34,248 bases of DNA, from contig CAIVJW010000429.1 in the NCBI GenBank assembly GCA_903906315.1, positions 1 to 34,248 on the forward strand, in the 5' to 3' direction. The position numbers and the translations under genes are program-made. This DNA comes from an uncultured delta proteobacterium (GTDB taxonomy: Bacteria > Myxococcota_A > Polyangia > Polyangiales > Polyangiaceae). Shown piece by piece: positions 1 through 6,669 of this stretch. The notes beneath the pieces were generated by a model. The model was not told where the DNA came from and ran no database searches. It saw nothing but the letters and a program-made list of their open reading frames with translations. Position 1 is the stretch's first letter; each line of letters opens with the position of its first letter.

Positions 1-490
1 CGCGACGACGACCGCGGGCGCTGCCTCGACCGACGCGCCGGCGCCGCGCCCGGGCTCGCCCCATCGCCCCGCCCTCGCGATCGCGGCGGGCGTCGCCGCG
101 CTGCTCGCCGTGGGCGCGGGGGCGATCGCCCTGCGCACACCGATCCCCACGACGACGGCGCCACCGTCGATCGCGACCGCGAGCGAGCCGCGCGCCGCCG
201 GCTCGGCCCTGGTCGCGTCCGTTCCGGCCGTGACGCCGAGCGCGGCCGCCCCCGAGCCGCTCGTCGCCGCGGCGCGCGCCGAGCCCACGCCCTCCGCCGC
301 GCCCTCGGCCACGCCGGCTCGACCCGAGCCACCGAAGCCGCCCGCGATCACGGCGCGCGCCGCGACCGCGTATTCGCCCGCTGCAGCGGCCATCGCACCG
401 CCGACGCCGCCCCCCGCCCCTCTGGCTCCACCGACCCTTTCCCCCACCGCGGAGCCGAAGCGCCGTGATCCCCTCCTCGACCGCAAGTAG
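1..490 (+). CDS. C-terminal part of a membrane protein with a Pro/Ala-rich tail (probable Ser/Thr kinase tail), cut by window edge
   Basis: The frame is open from the left edge (codons from base 2) to a TAG at 488-490; the true start lies outside the window. A short Ala/Pro-rich stretch is followed by one hydrophobic segment (about bases 60-130, running through AALLAVGAGAIAL) and then by about 115 residues rich in Ala, Pro, Thr and Ser, ending in a basic/acidic tip (KRRDPLLDRK). This single-pass segment plus low-complexity tail is typical of the C-terminus of myxobacterial Ser/Thr protein kinases, and the next gene (a TPR/PEGA-like membrane protein) often sits beside such kinases. The kinase domain is not visible, so that part is inference. 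The end overlaps the following gene by 26 bases, which suggests co-transcription. Confidence 0.6.
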   Translation, partial: ATTTAGAASTDAPAPRPGSPHRPALAIAAGVAALLAVGAGAIALRTPIPTTTAPPSIATASEPRAAGSALVASVPAVTPSAAAPEPLVAAARAEPTPSAAPSATPARPEPPKPPAITARAATAYSPAAAAIAPPTPPPAPLAPPTLSPTAEPKRRDPLLDRK

Positions 491-1460
491 CGCCCGCCGC
501 GGCGCGTGCTCGCTCGCCCTCGCGATCGCCGCGATCGCCCCGGCCAGCGCCGCGCGTGCCGAGGCCTCCGCCGCCGATCGCGCCGCCGCCGAGTCGCTCT
601 TCGACCAGGGCCGCACCGCGATGCAGGTCGGCCGCTACGCCGAGGCGTGCCCGCTGCTCGCGAAGAGCCAGGAGCTCGACCCGGGCGGCGGCACGCTCCT
701 GAACCTGGCGATCTGCCACGAGCAGGAGGGCCGCACCGCGACCGCGTGGGTCGAGTTTCGCGAGGCCGCGGCGATGGCCGCGCGCGACCGGCGCGACGAC
801 CGCGAGCAGCTCGCGCGCGCCCACGTCACCTCGCTCGACGCGGTCCTCTCGCGGCTGACGGTCGCCGTGTCCGTCGACACCGCGCCCCCCGGCCTCGAGG
901 TCCTGCGCGACGGCGCGCCCGTCTCGCGCGCGGCCTGGAACGCGCCGATCCCCGTCGATCCGGGCCAGCACACGATCACCGCGCGTGCCCCCGGCCGCGC
1001 CCCGTTCACCCACGTCGTGACGATCGGCCTGCGCTCCGACGCGCAGCGCGTGATCGTCCCCGACCTCGCCGCGTCGGGGCCGACGGCTGCGACCACGCCT
1101 CCGGCGGCCGCCGCGCCCCCCTCGCCGCCCGCCGCGCGCTTCCAGCGCACCGTCGGCTTCGTCCTCGGCGGCGTCGGTCTCGCCACGCTCGGCGTCGCGG
1201 TCGGCGTCGGCGCGTACGCCCTCGCCCGCGACTCCGCCGCGCGCGACCTCTGCGGCGGCGACACGTCGTGCCCGGCCGGCGAAGGCCTCGACACGAGCCG
1301 CGGCGCGCACCGCGCGGCGCAAGCCACCGACCTCCTCCTATGCGTCGGCGCCGCGACGCTCGTCACCGGCGTCGCCGTCGTGCTCACCGCGAAGCCCAGC
1401 GCCAAGGCCGCCACCGTCGGCGTCGGCCCCGGCACGCTCACGCTCGGCGGGCGGTTCTAG
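465..1460 (+). CDS. TPR / PEGA-like domain membrane protein with signal peptide
   Basis: 331 residues from a GTG start at 465, inside the last codons of the upstream gene. Residues 1-33 look like a signal peptide (Arg pair, then Ala/Leu/Ile core, then AARAE). Residues about 37-110 form a TPR-like region (FDQGRTAMQVGRYAEACPLL, then LLNLAICHEQEGRTATAW). About 125-190 resembles a PEGA-type beta domain (RLTVAVSVDTAPPG, PVDPGQHTITARAPGR). A Pro/Ala linker leads to a hydrophobic segment near 230-253 and a second near 287-308, with two Cys (CGGDTSC) between them. Such proteins commonly neighbour Ser/Thr kinases in Polyangiales and are thought to act at the envelope; the exact role is unknown. The coding assignment is firm, the function is not. 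Confidence 0.85.
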   Translation: MIPSSTASSARRGACSLALAIAAIAPASAARAEASAADRAAAESLFDQGRTAMQVGRYAEACPLLAKSQELDPGGGTLLNLAICHEQEGRTATAWVEFREAAAMAARDRRDDREQLARAHVTSLDAVLSRLTVAVSVDTAPPGLEVLRDGAPVSRAAWNAPIPVDPGQHTITARAPGRAPFTHVVTIGLRSDAQRVIVPDLAASGPTAATTPPAAAAPPSPPAARFQRTVGFVLGGVGLATLGVAVGVGAYALARDSAARDLCGGDTSCPAGEGLDTSRGAHRAAQATDLLLCVGAATLVTGVAVVLTAKPSAKAATVGVGPGTLTLGGRF

Positions 1461-1520
1461 TCCCGCGCGGCGGCGACCGGCCCGCGCGCCCTGGACTGCG
1501 GCGCCCGCCAGGCTCCGCCG

Positions 1521-1745
1521 CTACTCGATCTCGCAGAGCCCTCCGAGGAAGAGCGTCGCGTCTCCGACGTCCCACTGCGTCTTGTGGCATTCGCGCGGCT
1601 GCCACGGCCACGCGGTCGAGCCCGTCGCGTGGTTCAGGGCCGCGCAGCGGAGCGCGTCCGGCAGCGGGGGAGCGAGGCTCGTCGTGGGCGCGCCCTGTGG
1701 CCAGTCCTGGTAGCTCGACCCTCGCCGAGAAGGTGCGGTCGCCGT
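1521..1745 (-). pseudogene. C-terminal fragment of a C-type-lectin-like domain (decayed gene)
   Basis: The minus-strand frame ending at 1521 reads, near its end, YQDWPQGAPTT ... LRCAALNHATGSTAWPW ... ECHKTQWDVGD ... LCEIE, then stop. This follows the C-terminal half of bacterial C-type-lectin-like domains: W-x-x-G-x-P, then C-A-x-L, then W...C, ending in LCE. In these bacteria such domains usually sit in lipoproteins. The N-terminal half of the domain (the WIG... part) is not found directly upstream in any frame; the frame instead runs into the palindromic region. A lipobox-bearing N-terminal fragment lies 240 bases further upstream on the same strand. I infer one lectin lipoprotein gene that lost its middle. 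A very small intact protein cannot be excluded. Confidence 0.45.
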
Positions 1746-1754
1746 CCCTTTCGA

Positions 1755-1877
1755 GCACCGGCTTGAAAGCCCGGTGCAAAGCGGCCAAGAAGCCCGGGCC
1801 TCGGCCGGGCTCGGAGCGATCCGAGCCCCGCAGTGCAGGGCTTCTTGGGTGTCCTGCACTGGCATTCATGCCGGTGC
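1755..1877. repeat. 123-nt imperfect hairpin with alternative pairings
   Basis: Nested complementary arms: 1755-1762 with 1870-1877 (8 bp), 1764-1767 with 1865-1868, 1771-1778 with 1855-1862 (8 bp, one G-T), 1785-1795 with 1838-1848 (11 bp, perfect), and a tip stem 1807-1815 with 1820-1828 (9 bp, perfect) closed by a GCGA (GNRA-type) loop. A competing fold of three local hairpins is also possible: 1755-1761/1771-1777, the same tip stem, and 1831-1839/1853-1861 (9 bp, perfect). The octamer CCGGTGCA occurs at 1771 and again exactly 100 bases later at 1871. There is no T-run, so a standard intrinsic terminator is unlikely. It could be a small non-autonomous mobile element, a structured RNA or a recombination site. 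It lies between two pieces of a decayed gene. Confidence 0.7.
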
Positions 1878-1980
1878 ACCCAGGCAGCGCGGCGAGCTCG
1901 AACCGCTGATCAGCCAACATGGACGGGGCGGGGTCAGGCGGCGAGCCTCGCCGGATCCGCGGGACCTTCTCGGCGAGGGG

Positions 1981-2118
1981 CTAGCCGGTGGCTGTCGTGG
2001 TGGTGCCTGTGGTGGTCGTCGCGGCGGAGGTGGTCGTCGCGCCACTACCGCTGTCGAGGCTCGAGCCACACGCGACGAGGAGATCGCCAGTCGCGACGAA
2101 GACCATTCTGGGCAGCAC
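1981..2118 (-). pseudogene. Lipoprotein N-terminal fragment with Thr-rich linker
   Basis: Read on the minus strand from GTG (2118) or ATG (2106), the product begins VLPRMVFVATGDLLVACGSS. LVAC is a good lipobox, although the hydrophobic core carries an Asp and a Gly. It continues into an alternating Thr/Ala/Gly linker (GATTTSAATTTTGTTTT) and stops at TAG 1981-1983 after about 45 residues. Linkers of this kind normally join the lipid anchor to a folded domain, and none follows here. With the lectin-like C-terminus downstream at 1745-1521, the simplest reading is the front end of the same broken gene. Confidence 0.45.
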
Positions 2119-2528
2119 GGAGCCGAGCGTAGCATGTTCATTCCGCGCGGACGGGAGGGCATGCTGGCGAGGAGGTCCGCGGCAGCCTGATCGGCGGGGC
2201 AAAGGCCTTCCTCCGTAGTGTCGGTGAGCGCCGCCGAGTCGGAACCTCCGACGCCCGTGTGCGCGCCCCGAGCAGAGGCGGGTCGTCCGAAAGGGACCTG
2301 ACAGGGGGCGGCTGGGGCGTGGCTCGACGGTAGGTGGCGGGCTGATCATGCGCCCCCGGGACAGGCGCGCCCGGTTCGTCCGAGGAGGCGTGGCCGGGCT
2401 CGGCGGCCGGGGATGGGAGTGTGTTCCCAGCAACATCGGCCCGACCCGTGGGCAGGCCAGGAAGCTCAAGTGGTGTGGTATCGGTCCGTTTCTCCATGGG
2501 TCCGCCCGGAACGTGCGTGGCGGTTCAG

Positions 2529-2536
2529 GGAGGGAG
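2529..2536 (+). promoter_or_regulatory. Ribosome-binding site deciding the start at 2538
   Basis: The purine run AGGGAGGG lies immediately before ATG 2538. No comparable site precedes the in-frame starts further upstream, which supports the shorter 119-aa product. Confidence 0.5.
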
Positions 2537-2537
2537 T

Positions 2538-2897
2538 ATGAACGTACAGGGAACAGTGGGCTTACTTACTGTCGGGGTGGAGTCACACGCAGTCGGCGTC
2601 GTCCACGTCGGCGCGCAGGTGTCGTCCGCAGAGGTCGACGTGGGGCCGGCGGTGACGGTGAGCATCTCGCAGGCGGGCGCGACGCTCGGCGAGCTCGCGT
2701 CGTTGCGCGACCAGGACCCGGCGGCGTTCGAGGTCAAGCTGACCGCGATGTCGAACCGGGCGCGCGAGGCGCCGCTCGGCGCGAGCGGTGACCAGGCCAG
2801 GGCGCTGAACGACCTCGCCGACCGCCTCGCGGCGGCCCAGAGGAGCGGCGACCTCGCGGTGCTCACGAGCCTGACCGGTGCCGCGGCGTCGACGTGA
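2538..2897 (+). CDS. Small conserved-looking protein of unknown function
   Basis: 119 residues from ATG 2538. The start is set by a purine-rich ribosome-binding site (GGGAGGGAG) just upstream; the open frame extends further 5', but its composition there is not protein-like. Residues about 1-45 are Val/Gly/Ser-rich and beta-like (VGVESHAVGVVHVGAQVSS). The second half looks helical (ELASLRDQDPAAFEVKLTAM, then ALNDLADRLAAAQRSGDLAVL). There is no signal peptide, membrane segment or Cys. The helical part faintly recalls small motility-type proteins with an LxxxDPxxF pattern, but that is too weak to assign. It stands alone, with about 430 bases before the next gene. Confidence 0.65.
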   Translation: MNVQGTVGLLTVGVESHAVGVVHVGAQVSSAEVDVGPAVTVSISQAGATLGELASLRDQDPAAFEVKLTAMSNRAREAPLGASGDQARALNDLADRLAAAQRSGDLAVLTSLTGAAAST

Positions 2898-3331
2898 CGA
2901 TGCGGCGAGGGCCGCAACGGTGAGGCGGACGACGTCGTCCTGACCCGGCGTGCCCCGAGCGCGGGCGTCTCTCGACGTCGCGTCGCCGCCGCTCGGCGCG
3001 CGTGCGCGTTCACGGTCCTCTGTTCATGCGTCGTCCGCTGGCTCGCAAGGCCGTGGGCCGGATGGATAGGGGGCGAGAGCCGCGCCAAGGACGCCACGAT
3101 CGCCAAGACAAGATTCGGGGTGCCGCGAGCCTGGACGTCCACGCAGGGCGCATCCGACTGCCGGCTTCCGGCCCCGCAGCGCCCGCCTCCTCCTGCCGCT
3201 GCACCGTGCAGATCGCGAAGGCAGTCTTAGGTTGGTCCGGGACAGCCGGCGACGGACTCGCCCTCTGCCAGCGGGGGCTTGCGACCCCTGCGCGCCGCGC
3301 GTGAAACGTCCGGTTTCATCGTGGAGGGGAC
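2898..3331. other. Intergenic region containing dispersed repeat copy A
   Basis: No gene is supported. Most of it is copy A of a dispersed repeat (3003-3193). Open frames across it translate to Arg/Trp/Pro-rich strings that derive from the repeat rather than from a protein. The last bases before 3332 hold a GGAGGGG ribosome-binding site for the following lipoprotein gene. Confidence 0.6.
3003..3193 (-). repeat. Dispersed intergenic repeat, copy A
   Basis: The reverse complement of this stretch aligns with 15241-15445 over nearly its whole length, with an estimated four of five bases identical by eye and a few short indels. Shared blocks include GGCCGGCAGTCGGA-like, CCCTGCGTGGACG, CAGGCTCGCGGCA, TGGCGTCCTTGGCGC, CACGGCCTTGCGAGCCAG and CCGTGAACGCG. 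Both copies lie between genes and in opposite orientation relative to the window. No transposase is nearby, so this is a non-autonomous or passively spread repeat. Copy A lacks the left inverted arm seen in copy B. Confidence 0.75.
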
Positions 3332-3715
3332 ATGGCGACGAGAACCTTGGTGCTGGGCGCCATTGCGCTCGCTGTGGCGTGCGGCTCGGAGTCGAACCCG
3401 GATTGCGAGGAGGCCCGCCCTCCCGCGAGGACGCAGGCCATCGGCGAGGACTGCCTCGCGTTTCACTACGGGGCCTGCCCGACGCTCTTCACCGATTGCG
3501 CCGAGGGCACGTGCAGCGAGACCGGCAACGGGAACGGCTGGCGTTGCCTGGCCGCCTGCGGCGGCGGGTGTCCGAGCGGCACGTCGTGCAAGAACGACCT
3601 CTGCTGGCCGCGCGCGGTCTGCGCCCCGTTCTGCTCGGGCTCCCTCTGCTGTGACTACGTGCCGTGCTCGGACGATCCGACGACGTGCTGCCGGCTGTCC
3701 GGCTCGTGCCGGTGA
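3332..3715 (+). CDS. Small cysteine-rich lipoprotein
   Basis: 127 residues from ATG 3332, preceded by a strong GGAGGGG site. A short lipoprotein signal (RTLVLGAIALAVAC, Cys17 as lipid anchor) is followed by about 110 residues with 18 further Cys, arranged in pairs (CXXXC, CC at two places near the end, CCRLSGSC tip). The many disulphide candidates and lack of long hydrophobic stretches indicate a compact exported knob or EGF-like fold. Part of it (ACGGGCPSGTSCKNDLCWP) resembles Cys-rich modules common in myxobacterial surface proteins. No enzyme motif is visible and I do not recognise a named family. It is probably anchored at the outer membrane. Confidence 0.8.
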   Translation: MATRTLVLGAIALAVACGSESNPDCEEARPPARTQAIGEDCLAFHYGACPTLFTDCAEGTCSETGNGNGWRCLAACGGGCPSGTSCKNDLCWPRAVCAPFCSGSLCCDYVPCSDDPTTCCRLSGSCR

Positions 3716-3979
3716 GCGCCGCCCCGCCCGCCCCCGCGGAGCGCGCGCGCGCGGCTGGGCCGGCGCGACCTCGGCCGGCTCGTCGAGGGGGCGTCGGCGC
3801 GCCGCGGTCGGGTCGCGGCACGACGGGGCCCGTGGCCTCGCCGTGGTCCGGTGGTACAGGCCTCCCGGCGACCGCCGCGACGATCCGACCGGGAGAGCCC
3901 TGCCAGGGCTCGCGGAGTGGCCGGATGGTCGCCGCCTCGCGCTCCCACGCGGCCCCACCCACGAGAGACGGACGCTCCG

Positions 3980-4411
3980 ATGAGCTTCAAGCCGAACGCC
4001 CCCAAGTCCAAGCCCACCCGCCCCCGGAGCGCCAGCGCGGCCGCCGCGCGCCCCGTCGTCGCCGACGTGCACCGGAAGATCGTCCGCGGCGCCTCGGCCC
4101 AGGTCGCCGAGCTGCTCGCGAGCCTCGCCGACGAGCCGGATTTCTCCTCCGGCGTCGTCCTGGTCATCGCGGTGGGCGGTGACCCGCTCGCCGAGAGCCT
4201 GCTCGGCGGCGCGGGCCAGGCGCTCGCGGCCGGGCAGATCGCGCTCGTGCCGATGACCCGGGACGAGGCGCTCGACGTGCTCGCCCCCGCGGTCGCGCTC
4301 GACGTCCAGGCTCGGCTGCGCGCGGTGGCGGCGGACGGCCCGCCCGTCGTCGTCGTGATCCAAGGGGGGCGCGCGTCGACCTGGTCGGCCCGCGGCGAGG
4401 CGCTCGCGTGA
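3980..4411 (+). CDS. Hypothetical protein coupled to an integrase-arm-like gene
   Basis: 143 residues from ATG 3980. Residues 1-30 are basic and Pro/Ser/Ala-rich (FKPNAPKSKPTRPRSASA). The rest alternates strands and helices (VHRKIVRGASAQVAELLASL, SGVVLVIAVGGDPLAESLL, VVVVIQGGRASTW). There is no signal peptide or membrane span. Its stop codon overlaps the GTG start of the next gene (GTGA, 4408-4411), so the two are very probably translated together. Since the partner resembles the N-terminal arm domain of integrases, this may be an accessory gene of an element now largely lost. Family unknown. Longer upstream starts are possible but would add Arg-rich, non-protein-like sequence. Confidence 0.7.
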   Translation: MSFKPNAPKSKPTRPRSASAAAARPVVADVHRKIVRGASAQVAELLASLADEPDFSSGVVLVIAVGGDPLAESLLGGAGQALAAGQIALVPMTRDEALDVLAPAVALDVQARLRAVAADGPPVVVVIQGGRASTWSARGEALA

Positions 4412-4773
4412 GCGACCCGGCGAGCCGATCGCCCGGTCGGCCTCCGGCGACCGGCGCAGGCTGGGGCGTGGCCGAACCGCTGCCCGAAGGCGTCCGCTGC
4501 GTTCGAGGCAAGTGGATTGCCCGCGTCGCCGTCGACGGCGACGAGCGCGTCTCGTTCGCGCTGCCGACGTGCGACTCGCGCGAGGCGGCCGAGGCTCGGC
4601 TCGCGATCCTGGTCGAGCTGACTGCCGGGCTGCGCCTCGCGGGCAAGCTCCAGGTCGCCGAGAGCGTGCTGCGCCTGGCCGCGTCGCGGGCGAAGGAGGT
4701 CGAGCTCGAGACCGTGCGGCGGATGGTCGCCGACATGGCCCCGGGCGGGCGCCCGCCGAGGCGAGGGGGATAG
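4408..4773 (+). CDS. Integrase N-terminal (arm-binding) domain-like protein, catalytic domain absent
   Basis: 121 residues from GTG 4408, overlapping the previous stop. The pattern GVRCVRGKWIARVAVDGDE, then FALPTCDSREAAEARLAILVELTAGL, then AGKLQVAESVLRLAA, then VRRMVADM matches, from memory, the N-terminal part of large myxobacterial tyrosine recombinases: a small beta-sheet arm DNA-binding unit followed by helices. In full-length relatives a core-binding and catalytic domain with an R...HxxR...Y signature follows. Here the frame stops after a basic Gly/Pro/Arg tip, and only 57 bases separate it from the next, oppositely oriented gene. It is either a truncated integrase remnant or a stand-alone DNA-binding protein derived from one. 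Confidence 0.6.
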   Translation: MSDPASRSPGRPPATGAGWGVAEPLPEGVRCVRGKWIARVAVDGDERVSFALPTCDSREAAEARLAILVELTAGLRLAGKLQVAESVLRLAASRAKEVELETVRRMVADMAPGGRPPRRGG

Positions 4774-4830
4774 TCGCGATCGGGCCGGTCGACTCGGGGC
4801 CCTCGCGCGCGCGGCGCAGGGCAGCGATTC

Positions 4831-6669
4831 TCAGTAGGCGAACGCCGCCACGTCGCATCTGTCCATCGCGACGGCCCCGATCGAGGGCTCCCCGCGACCG
4901 TCGCGGAACTCGCAAGCGAGCCCCTTGTCGGGGCAGCTCGAGCGGAAGCCCACGTGCCAGGTGCCGGAGTCGTCGAGGCGCAGCTCCGTGTAGCCCCCGA
5001 TAGCGAGCTTCGCGCCCTTCGGCAGGTCGAGGAGGCCAGGCTCCGCGACGGCGCGCAGGGCGCCGACGAAATGCGCGCCGCGCTCGGCGTGACATGCCCC
5101 GACGGCGTAGCCGCCCGGGCCGAGCGACGCCTCGGCCCAGACGAGGTGCGAGGGCACGTGAATCACGACCGATCCGCCCGTGGTGGAGCCGTCGCCGGAG
5201 CAGGCCAGACGCCACTCGACGAGCTCGCCGCGCGCCAGGCCCGCGCTCTTCGCCAGCGCGATCGAGCGCGTGTCGAGCGAGCCCCGCCCCTCCACGCCGA
5301 GCGTGACGTCCTTGATCTCGCACTCGAACGGCTGGAAGCCGCCGGCCCTCGCTACGGCCTTGCGGAAGGCCAGCACGCGCGCGCTCTCCGTCTCGGGGAG
5401 GGACGCGCCGATCGCGGGCCCAGGCGCCGCCGGGAAGCTCACGAGGCGTGGGCGCGCCACGCCGCCGGCCACCGTGAACCAGGGCCCGAGGTCGCCGAGC
5501 TCGAGGTCCGACTGGCACGCTGCCAGTTCCCAGCGCGGCTTGCCGTCGCAGCTAGCTCGCGGCGTCGAGGATCGCTCCCGCGAGGATTGGCCCCCGCCGG
5601 ACGACCCGCCCGCGGTGACGCGCGGAGGCGGGGGATCCTCGCCCTTCTGGTCGAGCGTGAGCGGCGGATCTCCGCCCTTCGAAGGGAGCGCGACCGACCA
5701 CAGGTCCCCGCGCGACCAGAGCGCCGAGACCAGCGTCGGGCCGAAGCCTTGCGCGACGAGCGCCTCGAGCGCGCGCGCGGCGTCGCCGTCCGCGCCCGAC
5801 GAGCGAGTCAGCTTGGCGGCCGTCCGGACCGTGAGCTTGGCAGGAGCGGCCGGCCTGCGCGGGATGGAGTCGCGCCCTCCAGGGCCGAGGTCTTTGGCCC
5901 CGATGGCCGCCGCGAGTCCTTCGCGCTCGACGGCGGTCGCGAGCTCCGGCCCGAGCACGGCCGCGCGCGCGTCGACGGGGATCTCGATCAGGACCCAACG
6001 CCCCTTCGCCTCGCAGAGCACGAGGTCCCGCGCGCTGCCCTCGCCCGCGGCGCGCATCACGAACGGCGCCTCGCACGAGAATGCGCCGGTAACCTTGTCG
6101 GCCCTCCACTGGGCCGCGAGCGTCGCGCACGCCCCGCCCGCCGCGTCGGTCGCGCAGCCCGCCGCCACGTCGTCGAGCAGCTCGCGGCGGCGCTGCCAGA
6201 ACGCGCGCTGCAGCGGGGCCCAGCGCGCCTGCTCGGCGGCGTCGGCTTTCTCGAAGGCGGCCTTGGCCTCGTCCTTCTTGCGACTCCACACGTCCGCGAG
6301 TCGCTTCTCGTTCGCTGCGCGGCCGAGCGACGTCGCGCACTCGGGCCAGGGCGCCGGCACCTCGGCGCGCTTCGGCGTGTCGCGCTTCGGCGGGCGGCCG
6401 ACGGCGTGCGCCACTCCGACGCTCCAGCCTGCGGGCCCCGGCTCCGGCGGCTGCTCGGCCTCTGCCTCGGCCGACGCGATCGCCGAGGGCGACGGCGCGG
6501 CGGCCGATCCGGCGCTCGAGGGCGCCGGCGCGGCCGACGAGGCCGACGAGGTCGGCGCCGCGAGGGAGTCCGCGCCGATCGAGGTCGTGGAGGGGGCCCC
6601 GTCGTTCGCCCGCTTGCAGGCCGAGAGGGCCAGCACGAGGCCGCAGGCCGCCACGAGGCGTGCGCGCAT
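4831..6669 (-). CDS. Large lipoprotein of unknown function, third gene of a three-gene operon
   Basis: 612 residues. The ATG at 6669-6667 shares one base with the stop of the upstream gene (TGATG), so translation is probably coupled. A lipoprotein signal (ARLVAACGLVLALSAC) is followed by a Ser/Ala/Pro/Glu-rich linker to about residue 95. A helical, charged region follows (WSRKKDEAKAAFEKADAAEQ), then a globular region with paired Cys, a second Ser/Gly/Pro linker near residue 355, and a C-terminal beta-rich half with about eight Cys (for example SSCPDKGLACEFRDGRG). I do not recognise a family. Its place behind a lysozyme-like lipoprotein and a SUMF1-fold protein suggests an envelope function shared with them. 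Confidence 0.85.
   Translation of the reverse strand: MRARLVAACGLVLALSACKRANDGAPSTTSIGADSLAAPTSSASSAAPAPSSAGSAAAPSPSAIASAEAEAEQPPEPGPAGWSVGVAHAVGRPPKRDTPKRAEVPAPWPECATSLGRAANEKRLADVWSRKKDEAKAAFEKADAAEQARWAPLQRAFWQRRRELLDDVAAGCATDAAGGACATLAAQWRADKVTGAFSCEAPFVMRAAGEGSARDLVLCEAKGRWVLIEIPVDARAAVLGPELATAVEREGLAAAIGAKDLGPGGRDSIPRRPAAPAKLTVRTAAKLTRSSGADGDAARALEALVAQGFGPTLVSALWSRGDLWSVALPSKGGDPPLTLDQKGEDPPPPRVTAGGSSGGGQSSRERSSTPRASCDGKPRWELAACQSDLELGDLGPWFTVAGGVARPRLVSFPAAPGPAIGASLPETESARVLAFRKAVARAGGFQPFECEIKDVTLGVEGRGSLDTRSIALAKSAGLARGELVEWRLACSGDGSTTGGSVVIHVPSHLVWAEASLGPGGYAVGACHAERGAHFVGALRAVAEPGLLDLPKGAKLAIGGYTELRLDDSGTWHVGFRSSCPDKGLACEFRDGRGEPSIGAVAMDRCDVAAFAY

Follow-up and report, generated by a model that had tools for sequence, protein, structure and literature searches.

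The window analysed here is one contig of 34,248 nucleotides (C429) from a genome of 8.79 Mb in 455 contigs. Between two minus-strand open reading frames it carries a 123-nt palindrome, the centre of a longer repeated element whose parts are listed in Table 1. The nested arms of the palindrome (8 bp, 4 bp, about 9 bp with a bulge, a 3-bp stem, 11 bp and 9 bp) are essentially those that the initial annotation had drawn. Folded as RNA, the palindrome reaches -87.9 kcal/mol on the plus strand (z -8.56) and -82.7 kcal/mol on the minus strand (z -8.37). The same annotation held that the arms exceed what a GC-rich background would give, and none of 200 dinucleotide shuffles was as stable on either strand. 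Because the palindrome is present as described and folds better than every shuffle, the observation stands.

Table 1. Features of the locus in window coordinates (a dot marks features given without strand)
Feature	Positions	Strand	Basis or detail
Whole MITE, 265 bp	1717..1981	+	Edges from full-length copies and exact end pattern
Left terminal inverted repeat GACCCTCGCCGAGAAG	1717..1732	+	Pattern search of genome, 92 exact ends
Right terminal inverted repeat GCCCCTCGCCGAGAAG	1966..1981	-	End-pattern search of genome
Left target-site duplication TAGCTC	1711..1716	.	4/6 bases match right one
Right target-site duplication TAGCCG	1982..1987	.	4/6 bases identical to left one
Internal palindrome, 123 nt	1755..1877	.	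Single long hairpin; self-complementary block of about 22 nt at either end
11-bp arm, left, CCAAGAAGCCC	1785..1795	.	Pairs with 1838-1848
11-bp arm, right, GGGCTTCTTGG	1838..1848	.	Pairs with 1785-1795
Tip stem, 9 bp (1807-1815/1820-1828)	1807..1828	.	GCGA loop at 1816-1819
Putative downstream piece of interrupted ORF (YQDWPQGAP...LGGLCEIE, stop)	1521..1716	-	ORF list
Putative upstream piece, lipobox-like LLVACGSS in ORF	1982..2469	-	ORF 1981..2469, stop 1981-1983 at element edge

A search for second copies of the 123 bases, as the initial annotation had proposed, placed the core at no fewer than 36 sites in the same genome, the window copy counted. This number was obtained by merging 65 listed matches by hand, with the two strands of the palindrome joined, and is a lower bound from the 40 of 112 first-look candidates that were scored. 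Several copies are truncated by contig ends; identity to the window copy is 82-94% among those that align over most of the 123 nt. When the better copies were displayed with their flanks, similarity extended beyond 1755-1877. With 1690-2010 as query, the long copies run from query position 20-28 (for the one on C340 this is where the contig begins or ends) to about 290-297, and copies uncut by contig ends mostly share the same stopping bases on both sides. An outer inverted repeat of 22 nt that is 91% complementary lies at 1713-1734/1964-1985. The end pattern GNCCCTCGCCGARAAG has 92 exact occurrences in the genome (43 forward, 49 reverse), and the reversed pattern, used as a control, has none. 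The limits of the long copies, the inverted repeat at the edges and the 92 exact ends against a control of zero thus define an element at 1717-1981 with terminal inverted repeats GACCCTCGCCGARAAG. The palindrome described in the initial annotation is therefore real, but the unit that is repeated is the larger one. No open reading frame of 80 or more amino acids lies wholly within 1717-1981, as for a miniature inverted-repeat element (MITE) that lacks a transposase of its own.

The flanks of the copies point to a transposition product. Ends with at most two mismatches were collected from 83 merged segments (273,019 bases) and plus ends were matched to minus ends, which gave 45 pairs; five were dropped (four longer than 1 kb and one 323-bp decoy), each with a two-mismatch end, and the 40 that were kept span 113-266 bp. 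An exact 6-bp flanking repeat is found in 20 of these 40 copies, compared with a mean of 2.04 and a maximum of 8 when the right flanks were permuted, and exact repeats of 3, 4, 5, 7, 8, 9 or 10 bp are found in none. The consensus of the left 6-mer is the palindromic TAGCTA; its third base, G, and its fourth base, C, are each present in 38/40 copies. Two points tell against this reading: exact duplications are found in only 5/11 elements with the palindrome, compared with 15/29 paired copies of other types, and the duplication of the window copy agrees at just four of six bases. The latter has either decayed or belongs to a copy that was rearranged.

A population of copies with common ends and 6-bp duplications identifies a transposon without a gene of its own, and of the options offered in the initial annotation it is the miniature mobile element that accords with these data. 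The palindrome very probably forms the inner part of a non-autonomous DNA transposon of 265 bp that exists in many copies and most likely spread with an ISNCY-type enzyme. Mobility of the family is read from its copies, ends and duplications. At three places (C148:7830/7837, C35:29845/29852 and C116:5409/5416) two elements abut back to back, their ends exactly 6 bp apart, which would fit an insertion of one into the target duplication of the other.

A variant of this reading treats the 123-nt palindrome as an element in its own right, which inserted into a MITE that was already there. It would account for core matches that have other flanks, at C271:26044, C199:10478 and C264:35805, and for the existence of elements that are bounded by the same inverted repeats and contain other interiors. 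However, the best-matching copies have a span of 263/265 bp in common with fixed ends, and the diverged copies at C76, C219 and C264:17558 retain a related end; divergence and truncation can account for the remainder. Nested insertion is accordingly a distinctly unlikely account of the palindrome, which we continue to treat as an original part of the 265-bp MITE.

The initial annotation placed the palindrome between the pieces of a broken gene encoding a lectin-like lipoprotein. Part of this description fits: the stop codon of the upstream piece lies on the right edge of the element, and the element plus one duplication amounts to 271 bp, which is 1 modulo 3 and matches the shift in frame from one ORF to the other, so that they would be in register without the element (an agreement with one chance in three of arising anyway). 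Against it, the duplication is preserved at only four of six bases, neither piece matched a Pfam family above cut-off (the one listed match was New_glue, E 0.31), and a search of 39 genomes at E 0.01 returned six with a match, namely the genome itself and five others, whose matches (E 6e-4 to 6e-3) lacked a context that would support homology. A gene split by the MITE is plausible. The lectin identity finds no backing in the Pfam comparison or among the matches in the 39 genomes.

The initial annotation further proposed that the same bases form two mutually exclusive folds, and offered a switch as one interpretation. Local hairpins can indeed be drawn. When pairs in the window copy are confined to a 30-nt span, the best RNA fold reaches -66.4 kcal/mol compared with -87.9 kcal/mol for the long hairpin (a gap of 21.5), and the best DNA fold -35.9 compared with -49.8 kcal/mol (a gap of 13.9); for the consensus of the copies, the long fold is ahead of the 30-nt-span folds by 23.9 (RNA) and 13.0 (DNA) kcal/mol. 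Because the long hairpin outcompetes the short-span folds in this way, the sequence is not bistable at equilibrium. A search for copies with covarying arms had also been proposed. In an alignment of 22 of the 36 core copies, from which 14 short or diverged ones were omitted, covariation was absent for the long hairpin (its score was reached by 422/500 shuffles) and for the set of local hairpins (132/500). RNAalifold retained 10 pairs on the same 22 copies, none of them changed on both sides, with a covariation term of -0.01. The tip, described as a GNRA-type GCGA loop, is as stated in the window copy; GCGA occurs in 2/22 aligned copies and TCGA in 18/22.

These results bear on the possibility that the locus encodes a structured, riboswitch-like RNA that controls adjacent genes through two alternative folds. 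Such an RNA would be consistent with a fold that is very stable on both strands, with the local hairpins, and with a test in which random substitutions were placed on the consensus: for 13/17 copies, fewer than half of the simulations folded as well or better (the fraction was lowest in C73, 0.01, and C199, 0.02, and highest in C76, 0.935). This outcome leans towards kept pairing, but shared ancestry may explain it and the null model spreads changes evenly, and we do not count it as selection. Set against a regulatory RNA are the missing covariation, the energy gap in favour of the long hairpin, zero Rfam matches at the gathering threshold in the window, the lack of terminator-like or sigma-70-like sites in 1450-2600 by simple consensus, and the fact that the copies lie within 6-bp duplications at differing places. 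We regard a switch as very unlikely, and return to the palindrome as the interior of a MITE.

Elements with the same end do not all contain this palindrome. The palindrome type measures 253-266 bp in seven whole pairs. A sister type with identical ends is mostly 172-204 bp long, has an inner hairpin made of CACGGAGG-like 8-bp repeats (examples are C203:33060-33239, C249:41754-41957 and C447:6072-6267), and varies in length mostly in 8-bp steps: 22 of the 29 non-palindrome elements differ from 172 bp by a multiple of 8. The length of the element on C249 (204 bp) stems from another duplication and that of the one on C169 (116 bp) from a deletion, and the non-palindrome element on C123 has a different interior.

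Long palindromes are prone to internal deletion. Three copies of the palindrome type (C53:1978-2198, C249:48758-48914 and C131:3800-3963) are internal deletion derivatives in which much of the palindrome is gone, and in the last of these the two terminal palindromic blocks seem to have collapsed to one. The consensus of the aligned copies folds at -98.2 kcal/mol, which is better than the -87.9 kcal/mol of the window copy; this difference in modelled energy suggests that the founding copy was probably a more perfect palindrome than the one in the window. One could go further and suppose that a strong interior hairpin is needed for the success of a lineage-private MITE family in which unrelated interiors, the nested palindrome and the minisatellite hairpin with 8-bp steps, share one ISNCY-type end, for example if the folded single strand helps the transposase to pair the ends or aids excision, with self-complementarity selected in master copies while daughters decay freely. 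We think this unlikely.

A clue to the mobilising enzyme is provided by a third kind of end (GGCCCCGATCTGCG...), which was found at five places (C92:8659, C183:37376, C339:100, C381:201 and C121:12348), three of which run into contig ends. It probably represents the 3' terminus of the autonomous element. The copy at C381:1-207 overlaps C33:11373-11513 over 141 nt at 100% identity, both being contig ends in repeated DNA, and beyond the overlap C33 contains a 93-amino-acid stretch that reads as a transposase C-terminus. This remnant matches the C-terminal 60 positions of NCBIfam NF033593 (ISNCY_1) with E 3.4e-6 and 26 bits, where the cut-off is 325, a low score as would be expected of a short fragment, and its match to Pfam DDE_Tnp_1 (E 0.059) is below cut-off. 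A homologous fragment from genome G012, 56% identical to the remnant over 66 residues, is assigned more firmly (NF033593, E 6.4e-26; DDE_Tnp_1, E 8.6e-7). At E 0.001, NF033593 has no match in the genome of the window other than the remnant on C33. Another candidate on C381 (position 10698) with a weak protein match (E 0.017) was rejected, its large ORFs not being transposase-like as judged by eye.

Through a contig overlap, the MITE and the element with the transposase remnant appear to have an end in common, and it is most likely that an ISNCY_1-type transposase mobilised the MITEs; from sequence comparison the case for this is good but not proven. We infer the enzyme from the shared end, since neither an intact transposase nor a full autonomous copy with the MITE end was found in this genome. 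A scan of viral contigs for the transposase confirmed nothing. Searching plasmids with the transposase (tblastn) gave matches in 51 records, all below 60% identity; the hit that was inspected is of the ISRm17 family. On the Sinorhizobium meliloti plasmid pHRC017, the locus 356-5031 holds three tandem ISNCY transposase genes, two of them annotated as ISRm17 family, and inverted ends with a TAGTCTA/TAGACTA spacer between them. ISRm17 is listed in a REP sequence in an excerpt of PMC1525189 (1 of 1).

Related transposases in the order offer a comparison of target sites. Of 183 genomes from the order, 56 have an NF033593 match, which is above cut-off in nine, and matches below cut-off occur also in 3 of 14 control genomes. 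At nine inspected ISNCY_1 loci (L153-L161), with boundaries set by eye, TAGCTA-like flanks are present on both sides in five. TAGCTA adjoins both ends in L154, L157, L160 and L161; this 6-mer is self-complementary and could belong to the inverted repeat. In L159 both ends adjoin TACCTA, which is the sole 6-mer of the five that is not self-complementary and so distinguishes a direct from an inverted repeat. The 6-bp flanks of L155 are ambiguous, L156 and L158 have no exact 6-bp repeat, and the ends of L153 were not found. The ends read TAGCTA-CATCGCGGTGCAAAAGT in L160, TAGCTA-CACGGCGGTGCAGAATT in L161 and TAGCTA-GTTGGCGGTCCGAAA in L154. The L160 end has its target in common with the MITE, and 8/16 positions are alike by eye.

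These ends also bear on mechanisms that move single strands. Being palindromic, dispersed and multi-copy, the family resembles REP/BIME-type palindromes, which a RAYT (Y1) transposase mobilises, or elements of the IS200/IS605 type. Single-strand transposition by Y1 enzymes is not known to make target-site duplications or terminal inverted repeats. The presence of both here, on ends that lead to the remnant of a DDE transposase, leaves such an origin with a very slight probability, and the folded single-strand recombination site suggested in the initial annotation becomes superfluous, since a DDE transposon accounts for both the ends and the 6-bp duplications. Least probable of all is that the hairpins are stationary transcription terminators or insulators without a mobile origin. 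The strong GC hairpin with arms AAGAAGCCC/GGGCTTCTT could speak for this view, but it is at odds with a region that has no T-run terminator-like site and with the identity between copies and their 6-bp duplications.

The MITE family appears confined to its host as far as the surveyed genomes extend. Among 183 genomes of the order, a set that includes no other member of the host genus and in which four candidates per genome were scored, the 265-bp element was found at E 1e-6 in one, its own, and the 180-bp sister type likewise in its own genome only; the copies elsewhere in Polyangiales for which the initial annotation had proposed to search did not appear in this set. Core matches of 30-41 nt in 4 of 58 other genomes were set aside, being short, rich in GC and unaccompanied by other parts of the element. 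A search for the extended end pattern across species genomes returned 38 stretches from scattered taxa, each with a single match, which we attribute to chance; no title among them names the order, two are vague ('uncultured bacterium' and 'uncultured proteobacterium'), and near records were possibly omitted. The plasmid set contained no copy of the element. In the excerpts of open-licence literature that were retrieved, no palindromic MITE was found for myxobacteria, nor such elements for Myxococcus or Sorangium. The MITE family is new and of a known kind, a fairly ordinary type of element.

Excerpts of published accounts provide several parallels. Correia/NEMIS, RUP, RPE and YPAL/RU-2 (PMC2229807) and QMITE (PMC10969869) are, like the window MITE, short and non-coding, with a target duplication and a stable stem-loop. 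RUP has ends in common with an insertion sequence, IS630-Spn1 (PMC2229807). YPAL/RU-2 resembles the window MITE further in not being A+T-rich and in having targets with dyad symmetry, whereas the target rule differs: most MITEs in the excerpts of PMC2229807 have a TA motif and YPAL duplicates 3-26 bp, compared with 6 bp at TAGCTA-like sites for the window MITE. The window MITE matched no Rfam family; at the level of sequence, the comparison with these elements covered Rfam and the plasmid search. BrickBuilt of Porphyromonas gingivalis, a MITE that bears a minisatellite (PMC4596501, in excerpt), is similar to the sister elements of 172-204 bp with their 8-bp repeat, although its repeat measures 23 bp compared with the 8-bp steps of the sister type, and the palindrome subtype in the window has no tandem repeat.

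With ISNCY_1 (NF033593) the likeness lies in the family match of the C33 remnant, far below cut-off, and in the TAGCTA or TACCTA that adjoins the ends at five of the nine relatives' loci; the difference is that the MITE codes for nothing and that its end is only partly like theirs. The IS1202/ISAjo2 family belongs to the same catch-all ISFinder category, ISNCY, according to excerpts of PMC10132070, which give a transposase of 441-457 amino acids for its Acinetobacter members. Ends of the ISAjo2 type begin with TGT, and the ISAjo2 group targets dif-like sites, in contrast to the TAGCTA-like sites of the window MITE; duplications in that family are of 3-5 bp, 16-28 bp or none (PMC10132070, same excerpts), compared with 6 bp here.

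We propose that MITEs with two or more different interiors may have been moved by an ISNCY_1-type transposase that bound their GACCCTCGCCGARAAG ends in trans. The internal palindrome would have been present already in the founding copy, as the better fold of the consensus suggests, and the copies would have decayed since through substitutions and internal deletions, with no detectable covariation in either fold. One of them would have landed in or beside a small minus-strand ORF that resembles a lipoprotein gene.

An odd hairpin can in this way be assigned to a transposon family whose ends are exact and whose targets follow a rule, and a link is suggested between ISNCY_1 transposases and MITEs, with TAGCTA-like sites duplicated over 6 bp. 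As a caution, an extremely low folding energy in a genome of this sort may come from the interior of a mobile element and not from a regulatory RNA. The remaining puzzle is why two unrelated self-complementary interiors lie behind one end. Two such strongly self-complementary interiors with one end in one genome could offer a test bed for the self-complementarity of bacterial MITEs.
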